Assembly: GCF_029633915.1 (NCBI RefSeq)
Contig: NZ_CP091092.1
Coordinates: 496,001-560,000, forward strand
Direction: 5' to 3'
Source of the DNA: Methanomicrobium antiquum
Lineage (GTDB): Archaea; Halobacteriota; Methanomicrobia; Methanomicrobiales; Methanomicrobiaceae
Length of the DNA: 64,000 nt
Of the stretch, positions 603-3,688 are shown piece by piece. The position numbers and the translations under genes were made by a program. The notes beneath the pieces were generated by a model. That model had not been told where the DNA came from and searched no databases. It was given only the letters and a program-made list of their open reading frames with translations. Position 1 is the first letter of the stretch, and every line of letters starts with the position of its first letter.

Positions 603-635
603 ACAGATTGTTTATAATTAATATACGGGAGAAAA

Positions 636-1157
636 ATGAAGATAACCAATGTTGTAGCCACCATTTCACTAAAAGGGCCTCTGGACCTGGAAAAACTGCA
701 AACAGGACTTCCAGGATCGGAAAAAGGCAAATCACACTGGCTCAAATACCGCCTTCAGCCTGAAAACAAGTATGTGGCATTCTATAAATCCGGAAAATTC
801 CTGCTTACAGGAGCGGATATTATTGAAAATTCAGACTCCCTGATTGAAAGAATCATTGAAAAAATACACGAAGCAGGACTCCCAGCCGAATTAAAAAAAT
901 TCGATATATGCAACATCGTTTGTCACGATAAAATACAAATTAATTCCAGTCTGGAAGCCATTTACGAGCAATTCAGGTCCGGAGAAGAGGTTGATTGTGA
1001 ATATGAACCTGAACAATTCCCAGGGATGGTATGCAAAACCAGGGGAGTTACAATACTCCTGTTTTCTACCGGAAGCCTGGTTTGCACAGGTGCAAAAACT
1101 GTATCTGAAGCTGAAGAAGCGATTTACAACTTCTCTAATTTGCTCTCATCGCTTTAA
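636..1157 (+). CDS. tbp: divergent TATA-binding protein (TBP) linked to BREX
   Basis: A 173-residue protein with the two-repeat TBP layout, close to the usual 180 or so. TBP binds the TATA box and recruits TFB and RNA polymerase. Repeat 2 (about residues 88-165) is canonical, with EYEPEQFPGMV and ILLFSTGSLVCTGAK carrying the intercalating Phe residues. Repeat 1 (about residues 4-80) keeps NVVATISL and AFYKSGKFLLTGA, but the QFPG segment is replaced by a sequence around KSHWLKYRLQ, so one Phe pair is degraded. It starts at ATG 636 after a GGGAG ribosome site, 33 bases behind brxL and in the same direction, so it may be co-transcribed with it. It is probably an accessory TBP rather than the housekeeping one; a TBP-like regulator that competes at promoters is also possible. 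Confidence 0.82.
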   Translation: MKITNVVATISLKGPLDLEKLQTGLPGSEKGKSHWLKYRLQPENKYVAFYKSGKFLLTGADIIENSDSLIERIIEKIHEAGLPAELKKFDICNIVCHDKIQINSSLEAIYEQFRSGEEVDCEYEPEQFPGMVCKTRGVTILLFSTGSLVCTGAKTVSEAEEAIYNFSNLLSSL

Positions 1158-1180: not shown

Positions 1181-2284
1181 TTATAAAAACCCCCTAACCT
1201 CCACATAACTCATCCTACCATGAACCCCGTCCTTCTTCACAAGATCAACAAGCCTAAGCTCCTCTAATTTTTTGATATACTCAAAAAAGTAGGTATAACC
1301 GATATTCAGCTCATCCTTCGCACGCCGCTGCACCTGTCCTGATGTGACGCCGGCAGCGTCTCCCCTCTCTTTAGACTCCCGTGTCATCTCACCGATAAGC
1401 TCAAAGAGCTGCCTCTCACCGTTCTTCAGAGTCTTAAGGGTCTCATTAACATGCACATCCTTTGAAACCGAAAAGGCCCGGCTCACATCCTCCTCAGTAA
1501 CAGATGTCCTGGCATCGTTCTCCGCATTCATCACAGACCGCTTAATCAGATCAAGGCCGACACGGAGATCCCCAATCTTCATTGAATAGTCAACAATCAG
1601 ATCAAGAATATCCCCTGAGATAACATTCGGATAAACACCCTGGAGGATTCTGGCCTGATAAATATCGTGCATCTCTGCAGCGGAATAAGGCGGGAAATAT
1701 ACCTCAGCCGGCCTGAATGATGACACAACCCCGGCATTAAGGCCATCTAAAATATTCTTATGAACATCTGAGAGAACTGCAAAAACTCCTATTCTGACTC
1801 CCTCAAATTCCTGGTGAAGTCTTAAAGCAGTAAAAAGTGTAGTGTTCATCGCACTCTTACTGCCCATATAATTAACGTCATCAAGGCAGAGAAGAACGAC
1901 TTTATTCTCTTCTGCAATCTTTTTTGCAACCGCTGCAACGAGGTTCTCAAAAGACAAACCTGCGGGCGAAATTTTAGTGTCGGTAACCTTTCGATAAACC
2001 TTTGAATAAATCGAAAACGGAGACCTCTCAATCTGGCAGTTTACATAAACAGTAACAAGCTTTTTTGTGTGCATCTCTGCCTCGGAAAAAAGTTTTCTGA
2101 GACATGTTGTTTTCCCCGTCCCCGGAAGCCCCCTGCATATTGTGTTCACCGGCGAACACCCCTTAAGCGCCGGTCTCAGATTATATGAAAGCTCTCTTAT
2201 CTGCTCTTCCCTGAATAAAAACCGGTCAGGAATATAATCAGATTCAAAGGCTGAAAGATCCCGAAACAGTGTCTCTTCCCCATT
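1181..2284 (-). CDS. cdc6: Orc1/Cdc6 replication initiator, start codon missing or shifted
   Basis: Archaeal origin-recognition AAA+ ATPase. The Walker A box GLPGTGKTT, a Walker B-like LLCLDDVN, and a C-terminal winged-helix region are present. The first Met/Val codon in frame is GTG at 2149-2147, only about eight residues before the P-loop. The frame stays open to 2284 and upstream of that GTG encodes the conserved N-terminus (EETLFRDLSAFESDYIPDRF and onward), so the real protein starts further up. No ATG, GTG or TTG lies in that open stretch. An ATG at 2283-2281 sits one frame off at a run of four G; a fifth G would join it to MGEETLFRD. So either a frameshift, a base-call error, or a CTG start at 2269. 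The gene is convergent with tbp. Confidence 0.8.
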   Translation of the reverse strand, partial: NGEETLFRDLSAFESDYIPDRFLFREEQIRELSYNLRPALKGCSPVNTICRGLPGTGKTTCLRKLFSEAEMHTKKLVTVYVNCQIERSPFSIYSKVYRKVTDTKISPAGLSFENLVAAVAKKIAEENKVVLLCLDDVNYMGSKSAMNTTLFTALRLHQEFEGVRIGVFAVLSDVHKNILDGLNAGVVSSFRPAEVYFPPYSAAEMHDIYQARILQGVYPNVISGDILDLIVDYSMKIGDLRVGLDLIKRSVMNAENDARTSVTEEDVSRAFSVSKDVHVNETLKTLKNGERQLFELIGEMTRESKERGDAAGVTSGQVQRRAKDELNIGYTYFFEYIKKLEELRLVDLVKKDGVHGRMSYVEVRGFL

Positions 2285-2352
2285 TCAACAACTGATTCAT
2301 ATTTTCAGGTCACTTTTAAGAGCAGATAAACCTGCAGGCGTTTTACTTTCAG

Positions 2353-2364
2353 ACCGCCCGCGGT
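2353..2364. promoter_or_regulatory. short perfect palindrome upstream of orc1/cdc6
   Basis: ACCGC-CC-GCGGT, five-base arms with a two-base spacer, in the 171-base gap between the Orc1/Cdc6 and recombinase genes. It is GC-rich in an otherwise AT-rich gap. It could be an operator or part of an initiator-binding region; I do not see a recognisable ORB element. Only the symmetry supports it. Confidence 0.25.
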
Positions 2365-2455
2365 GGATTTATTGTGTGCAGTATTTTTGCGGGTTAGATA
2401 GTTAAAAGGCGCACTGTGGTTAAAAAGAAGTCTTTAGGTTTGGGTTTTTTAAAAA

Positions 2456-3688
2456 TTATAGAGATGTTTTTGCCTGCATTTTCTCCTCAAGGATCTTCTC
2501 AATCATCTGTTTTAGCAGGTTGGGATTTTTGCTGATGTCTTCTGCCATCTCTTCAATGGTTGCTGTTGCTTCATCGGTGAATGATCGTCCGCAGCGGTTG
2601 CAAAATTCGGCTTTCGGCGGGTTTATCGTCATGCACTTTGGACACATTACCGGTTCAAGTGCATGGGTTTCCTTTTCGTCTTTTGAAACGATTCCATAAT
2701 TTCCGAGAACCTCACGGTCGATGTCACGTCCGGTCAGGTGTGCGTATGTCTGAAACATCGGTGTGTTGATGTTTCCCCACATCATTAGCTTTATTACTGA
2801 TTCATTCATCCCGTCATTGATCAGGTGTGTGATTCTGCTGTGCCTGAAGATGTGCGGTGTTATGTGTTTATGAATACCTGTTCTTATCCTTAAAGTGTGA
2901 AGGATTTTCATTACAGTGCCGTGGTTAAATGGAGTTTTTTGCTGAGTGATAAAGACGAGGTTGTTATCTTTCGGTTCAAAGGGATAGTCCTGGCGCCATG
3001 CCAGAAGGTAAGGTTTTGACATAACTATCCGGACATATCTCTGCTTACTGCATTTTGTATCTTCAACTGTCAGAATGATTCCATACTCGTCAAACTGTAT
3101 TCTTCCCCATGTGAGCCGGCCGATTTCTCCGATTCTGCATCCTGATTCATAAAGAAGTGCGATTAATGCCCGGTCTCTTGAATTTGTGCAGCCTGAGAGC
3201 AGCGTCTCTATCTCTTCTTTTGAAAGCATCTGTTCAGGAAGTTTTGTGCTGAAGTTTGCGCTTGGCGGTTTTATTTTGTTTATTTTTTCTTTCGGAAGAT
3301 CATTATAGCCATTTTCAATCATCCAGAGGCTGAATCTTTTCAGAAACATGACGTAGTCATGAATTGTGTTGGCCTTATATGGCCTGTCCCTGCTGCTCTT
3401 TGCTGTTTTGAGATCTGAAATCGCTTTGTAGATATCAGAGATTTTTGCCTCTTTGTAAGGACAGATGAAACGTCTCCATGTAATGAGAGCATAAATTATT
3501 TTGTTTGTTCTTGCAAGGCCGATGTTTTGTGATGCCTGAAGCTCGGATATAAATTCATAGATGAGATCTAAGTCATACTGGAGAATCTGGCCTTCTGTGA
3601 GTGCCCGTTTAATTGACCGGTCTGCATAGACTGGCTTGACGTAATGAAAATTACTGTCGGTCCTGGTGGGTGCTGTGGTACTTCCCAT
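2456..3688 (-). CDS. tyrosine recombinase/integrase with C-terminal zinc ribbon
   Basis: A 410-residue site-specific recombinase of the XerC/D-lambda integrase family. An N-terminal SAM-like DNA-binding domain (about 30-150) is followed by the catalytic domain (about 170-340). Visible catalytic residues are Arg in SGCRIGEIGRL, Lys in the TKCSKQR region, His-x-x-Arg in PHIFRHS, a Trp (MMWGN) near the usual His/Trp position, and the nucleophile Tyr in FQTYAHL. A zinc ribbon (CPKC...CNRC, about 347-366) and an acidic/basic helical tail follow; this extension is common in methanogen and haloarchaeal integrases. The length exceeds that of chromosomal XerA (about 280-300). Its start faces the 3' end of tRNA-Thr, 63 bases away, which fits the role of island integrase. 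Confidence 0.88.
   Translation of the reverse strand: MGSTTAPTRTDSNFHYVKPVYADRSIKRALTEGQILQYDLDLIYEFISELQASQNIGLARTNKIIYALITWRRFICPYKEAKISDIYKAISDLKTAKSSRDRPYKANTIHDYVMFLKRFSLWMIENGYNDLPKEKINKIKPPSANFSTKLPEQMLSKEEIETLLSGCTNSRDRALIALLYESGCRIGEIGRLTWGRIQFDEYGIILTVEDTKCSKQRYVRIVMSKPYLLAWRQDYPFEPKDNNLVFITQQKTPFNHGTVMKILHTLRIRTGIHKHITPHIFRHSRITHLINDGMNESVIKLMMWGNINTPMFQTYAHLTGRDIDREVLGNYGIVSKDEKETHALEPVMCPKCMTINPPKAEFCNRCGRSFTDEATATIEEMAEDISKNPNLLKQMIEKILEEKMQAKTSL

Follow-up and report, generated by a model that had tools for sequence, protein, structure and literature searches.

TATA-binding proteins with an altered N-terminal half are linked to BREX and restriction-modification loci in euryarchaea

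We identified in a 64,000-nucleotide stretch of archaeal DNA (the window) a divergent TATA-binding protein (TBP) encoded directly behind a BREX cluster, and we found TBPs with an altered N-terminal half linked to BREX and restriction-modification (R-M) loci. The association is well supported and recurs across the euryarchaea in three lineages (A, which includes the window protein, B, and C). TBP is normally a housekeeping transcription factor in archaea, and general transcription factors are seen as part of the housekeeping machinery. That three TBP lineages found at BREX/R-M loci have changes at the same N-terminal intercalating residues ties promoter recognition to archaeal antiviral defense and suggests that defense clusters carry a general transcription factor of their own. 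Our search of the open-access literature turned up no earlier account of archaeal TBPs linked to BREX or R-M.

The window TBP gene (636 to 1157, + strand) encodes a protein of 173 amino acids that was identified by its Pfam family (PF00352), by a fold search of the PDB with an AlphaFold2 model and by alignment with 11 relatives. It follows the 3′ end of brxL (3 to 602, + strand), a gene that starts upstream of the window (G000:C1:494563-496602) and whose product matches BrxL in PADLOC (1108 bits) and the Pfam families BrxL_ATPase and BrxL_N. The earlier note on this DNA had placed the TBP 33 bp behind the last BREX gene and on the same strand, as is indeed the case; of the coordinates it gave (603 to 1157) the end stands, but 603 is the first base past brxL and the reading frame opens at 636. 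The intergenic stretch (603 to 635, + strand) contains TTTATAATTAATATA at 610-624 and a GGGAG located 5 nt 5′ of the ATG, and could be read as a leaderless promoter or as a ribosome site for co-transcription. Pfam and PADLOC annotations revealed a full BREX cluster (BrxB, BrxC, a split PglX, PglZ, and BrxL) in the 14 kb upstream of the TBP. The pglX gene is in two parts, an N-terminal one of 615 aa and a C-terminal one of 576 aa (L009:10330-15370, equivalent to G000:C1:486830-491870), and an AlbA_2/HATPase/Fic-like_C reading frame overlaps between the two halves, a layout also seen in genome G013.

Convergent with the TBP is an Orc1/Cdc6-like gene (1181 to 2149, − strand; Pfam Cdc6_lid), which appears to lose its reading frame near the 5′ end (~2150-2290), close to a stretch of GGGG, through either a frameshift or a sequencing error. 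Beyond it, the open reading frame of a tyrosine recombinase (2456 to 3688, − strand) belongs to the integrated element that bears the island, and a homologue edges other TBP islands (e.g., L269). Elements of this family carry a tyrosine recombinase, Orc1/Cdc6, a primase-like protein of ~960 aa, and an HTH pair together with varied defense cargo (L009:1-3776, window 1181-3688, L044, L221, L269, L311, and L318). The window genome (G000, a single 2.44-Mb contig) encodes four TBPs in all. The other three, at 1216, 1227, and 1567 kb, are ordinary TBPs with 26-32% identity to the window protein, which is therefore a paralogue; that it might be the sole TBP of its genome, which would have refuted the reading of the earlier note, is thus rejected.

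The window protein matched the Pfam TBP family with 109 bits and with both repeats over the cut-off. The AlphaFold2 model, generated from a 12-member family alignment, had a pLDDT of 94.3, and its fold matches in the PDB were TBPs (TM-score 0.81-0.89). Hence, the protein has two TBP repeats, which are predicted to form the saddle. In TBPs, it is the N-terminal half that recognizes the downstream TATA half-site and kinks it. In a profile alignment with the Sulfolobus TBP (1mp9), repeat 1 aligned without gaps, so that KSHW (codons 32-35; 729 to 740, + strand) replaces the QFPG of the N-terminal stirrup, with Ser33 at the position of yeast F99, and Tyr50 (783 to 785, + strand) stands where this repeat has its second intercalating Phe (yeast F116), assignments that also draw on column counts. 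Of the four intercalating phenylalanines, the window TBP thus retains the C-terminal pair and has Ser33 and Tyr50 at the N-terminal positions. It also keeps, in the EPEQFPG of the C-terminal stirrup (1005 to 1025, + strand), two glutamates that are invariant in all groups and that correspond to the TFB/TFIIB contacts of established structures. The description of repeat 2 as canonical was correct (EPEQFPG and LFSTG are both kept), as was the recognition of a replaced QFPG near KSHWLKYRLQ. "Degenerate," however, was the wrong word for repeat 1, given that the altered repeat is conserved across 11 full-length relatives. The relatives share the pattern WLKxRLxPENxYIAFYxSGK, in which W35, R39, Y46, F49, Y50, S52, G53, and K54 are invariant in Methanomicrobiales, Methanosarcinales-type genomes, and a Methanomassiliicoccus. 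Because the alternative residues are conserved, repeat 1 is rebuilt rather than degenerate or decaying. The window TBP has in common with ordinary archaeal TBPs the fold, the C-terminal Phe pair, the TFB Glu pair, and the minor-groove Asn/Val residues, but differs from them in the replaced N-terminal Phe pair and in its genomic setting.

Searches of 232 genomes of Methanomicrobiales and 186 genomes of the order of G079 set lineage A sharply apart, its members scoring at least 188 bits and all other TBPs at most 115. The 13 lineage-A loci came from seven genomes of the first order, four of the second, G101, and L066, the last of which was recovered by a contig scan among the matches listed, mostly ordinary TBPs. 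We infer that the 232-genome order and the relatives of the window genome are Methanomicrobiales from the trees, in which a named Methanoculleus TBP (L138) groups among the TBPs of that order. An R-M or BREX gene was present within 6 kb of 9 of the 13 lineage-A TBPs and of none of 96 ordinary TBPs (0/37 in Methanomicrobiales and 0/59 in other archaea; Fisher p = 1.7e-10), although the lineage-A rate is inflated because the R-M/BREX protein queries were drawn from lineage-A loci. The Pfam and PADLOC annotations of the neighbors are independent of these queries. Among Pfam-annotated neighbors, type I R-M genes were beside the lineage-A TBP in G018, G326, G079, G101, G611, and G627, type ISP R-M genes in L066, and BREX genes in G000 and G262. 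The TBP of G611 (L219) is inserted in the order hsdS-TBP-hsdM with overlapping reading frames, and that of G079 (L060) lies 13 bp after hsdR. No R-M genes were detected near the TBP in 3 of the 13 loci (G021, G289, where the gene is truncated, and G646) and in G589 the TBP is at a contig edge, so that 3 or 4 loci are without nearby R-M. The TBP copy in L062 is cut short and adjoins a transposase. Genes for NurA, HerA, Mre11-like, and Rad50-like proteins are immediately 5′ of the TBP in G101 (L061:2322-8351). A viral origin of lineage A was considered and rejected, as IMG/VR, phage, and plasmid records contained no lineage-A member.

The only two matches among the control TBPs were another divergent TBP, lineage B. 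Searches detected it in 16 of the 232 Methanomicrobiales genomes but in none of the G079 order. R-M/BREX genes were within 6 kb in 9 of the 16 loci (p = 2e-9) in a test whose queries derived from lineage A and were foreign to lineage B; by annotation, the neighbors at further loci are methylases of type III or type IIG and genes of HEC-01. Some of these TBPs are integrated in the defense operon itself, as in L321 (TBP-pglZ-brxL, within a BREX operon) and L323 (hsdM-hsdS-TBP-hsdR). Others are immediately 3′ of brxL (L324) or follow pglZ-brxL-EVE-DUF91-DUF365 (L325), and the copies in L318 and L322 are disrupted. The dN/dS values of lineage B (0.09-0.22) indicate purifying selection. Most lineage-B TBPs share a cassette with EVE, to which DUF365 and DUF91/NucS-like genes are variably added (L325:6931-9335, L314, L315, L312, L272, and L269); the window genome also has an EVE gene, transcribed divergently from brxB. 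Immediately 5′ of the lineage-B TBP in two loci (L316:7944-10320 and L317:6170-8546) are genes for an AAA ATPase and HEC-01B, a PADLOC candidate defense system.

The closest named relatives of lineage B are haloarchaeal plasmid TBPs (lineage C), represented by 12 records with at least 66% identity from Halobacterium salinarum (7), Halorubrum lacusprofundi, Halolamina, Halorientalis, Natronomonas, and Halorarius. All six plasmid loci examined (five species) have the gene order methylase-helicase-TBP, mostly with 4-bp overlaps, and the remaining records point to the same operon only through a helicase annotation under the match. More distant members of the lineage are housed in BREX loci, in the order PglX-TBP-pglZ-brxL in Haloarcula halophila (L372) and in the BREX-5 systems of Halanaeroarchaeum, Halorarius, and Halococcus, and methylases are near the TBP in Halobacterium DL1 and Natribaculum. 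By comparison, no R-M/BREX genes were near the ordinary plasmid TBPs in 5 of 5 loci. Because its members have lost the N-terminal Phe pair, lineage C appears to be the TbpC family (PMC4230888), and the lost pair and the database names suggest that VNG_RS11040 is the tbpC of strain NRC-1. The Halobacterium tbpC knockout had no apparent phenotype and no transcript was detected in the laboratory (PMC2121645, PMC4230888); in 2014, TbpC was called "nonfunctional or very specialized" in a paper that does not mention BREX, restriction, defense, or methyltransferases (PMC4230888). The dN/dS of lineage C (0.065-0.083) indicates purifying selection, and the low values in lineages B and C disfavor a lost function of TbpC. 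Loss of the N-terminal Phe pair and retention of the C-terminal one are common to TbpC, a dispensable paralogue borne on plasmids, and the window protein. The window protein, however, belongs to a separate methanogen lineage with W-L-K in the stirrup.

One signature unites the three lineages. All 36 full-length sequences compared from A, B, and C have Tyr at the F116 position, where ordinary TBPs have Phe (94/95 and 5/5), and none of the 36 has Phe at the F99 position. The C-terminal Phe pair is retained save for two exceptions, and both TFB-contact glutamates without any. Lineages A (SH-aLRT 100) and B (99) were well supported in the tree, lineage A as a monophyletic group, and all three, plus one viral and one haloarchaeal TBP, fell on the same side of a branch (SH-aLRT 93). 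As the branches are long, a single origin of A, B, and C is possible at most.

The link is not to brxL in particular. A sample of 394 genomes contained 67 brxL places, of which only two share an island with a lineage-A TBP and about three more with a lineage-B TBP; no altered TBP was detected in 20 brxL-downstream regions (8 kb) from these places. Further, G013 carries a syntenic BREX island (BrxL 94% and BrxC 77% identical) in which cdc6 comes after brxL without an intervening TBP. The brxB promoter of G013 (CTGTATAAC) is nearly the same as that of G000 (CTATAAAAC). The BREX operon therefore does not strictly depend on the TBP, which is an optional extra. We therefore ruled out a brxL-specific partner and, with ~5 of 67 places and 0 of 20 downstream regions, a regular member of the BREX operon. 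The proposal that the subtype is tied to defense survives for defense clusters (9/13 versus 0/96) but not for brxL, whose co-occurrence the earlier note had put forward as a check (2/67 for lineage A); most close relatives are beside type I/ISP R-M genes. We also compared promoters of two operons with lineage-A TBPs. The sequence CAATCWATAAAACWAT is common to the BREX promoter of G000 and the hsdM promoter of G018, and its core pattern CAATCWATAAAAC has two matches in the G000 genome and one in G018. This shared motif is not significant, as 30 of 1300 other promoter pairs match equally. A shared dedicated promoter was rejected on these grounds and because the promoter of the TBP-less G013 is almost the same.

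We favor, with a probability of roughly 45%, a role for these TBPs as alternative, TFB-competent factors with changed DNA recognition, which defense islands would carry for their own promoters. The exchange of the N-terminal half for a conserved alternative would change the recognition of the downstream half-site. TFB and RNA polymerase would still be recruited with normal polarity, as expected of proteins that keep the fold of a TBP, its C-terminal Phe pair, and the stirrup that binds TFB. Initiation, at promoters and under conditions that we infer, would be confined to a restricted set with a different downstream half-site. The first targets would be the defense-island promoters and the TBP's own operon, and the factor would act where the host TBP serves such promoters poorly. 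Island transcription may involve the change in promoter choice and the switch during infection that the earlier note envisaged. Counting against the proposed role are the TBP-less island of G013, the lack of a significant motif, the published tbpC results, and the lineage-A loci free of R-M genes. Metazoan TRF/TLF proteins are paralogues of TBP in which intercalating residues have changed, and they serve a promoter class of their own; eukaryotic and without a link to defense, they provide an analogy only. The C proteins of bacterial R-M systems are small HTH regulators encoded with the R-M genes. The altered TBPs are likewise transcription factors encoded with R-M genes, but they are paralogues of a general factor.

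A bolder proposal, unlikely in our estimate, makes these proteins immune general transcription factors: TBPs with a rebuilt N-terminal half would bind DNA only conditionally and then license BREX/R-M transcription in infection, perhaps after a single origin and spread with defense islands across methanogens and haloarchaea. The condition for binding may be a partner, altered or unmethylated DNA, or a blocked host TBP. Also improbable is a spare or decoy TBP, whose altered surface would evade viral inhibitors or hijackers of the host TBP and thereby keep transcription going in infection. Viral TBPs do exist (HRTV-9, HJTV-2, and ANMV-1) and the altered TBPs partner many unrelated systems (type I, III, IIG, ISP, BREX, and HEC-01), as a general helper would. 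Yet gene order binds the TBP to single operons in many cases and, among the positions compared, the change falls in the DNA-kinking N-terminal half. Positions inside R-M operons, even between hsdS and hsdM, would suit, instead of a promoter factor, a part of the restriction/BREX machinery that senses DNA shape or acts as an adaptor, marking foreign DNA or recruiting the effector to it, similarly to the TBPs that are components of the TOTE and TALON conflict systems (PMC12458937). The definition of these systems includes TPR-OB (TPR-CSD) partners, and TALON is reported from Bacillati. TOTE/TALON and lineages A and B all have a TBP in a prokaryotic conflict locus, but the former have TPR-OB partners and the latter BREX/R-M neighbors; the Pfam-scanned neighbors of lineages A and B included no TPR-OB/CSD partner of the TBP. 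A pure sensor would, moreover, have no need for the TFB Glu pair, which lineages A, B, and C keep without exception, and homologous BREX islands do without a TBP, making this role decidedly unlikely.

We consider it very unlikely that the TBP is a mobile-element transcription factor found near defense genes only as co-cargo of integrated elements or plasmids. The window island and other TBP islands do share the integrase, Orc1/Cdc6, primase-like protein, and HTH pair, and lineage C is on haloarchaeal plasmids here. However, the same backbone is without a TBP in L361/L362, TBPs are internal to operons, Methanosarcinales-type and Methanomassiliicoccus loci without the backbone still pair TBP and R-M, and ordinary plasmid TBPs are away from defense genes (5/5). 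Decay into a functionless paralogue, as suggested for a possibly nonfunctional tbpC (PMC4230888) and illustrated by the broken copies in L062, L318, and L322, is hardly credible against dN/dS values far under 1 in lineages B and C and a motif (WLK..R...YIAFYKSGK) kept across orders in lineage A.

As a candidate factor for defense-island promoters, the haloarchaeal TbpC gains a concrete possible function that can be tested in a genetically tractable organism, and the link to defense may explain the plasmid-borne multiplication of TBPs in some archaea. In NRC-1, the methylase gene of the tbpC operon on pNRC200 is broken by an ISH27 transposase (L371:490-6068), while it is intact in strain R1, where it lies on PHS4 (L370). 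Genes for TIR-domain proteins are at the 5′ end of haloarchaeal methylase-helicase-TBP clusters (L366:1-459 and L367:1-568).
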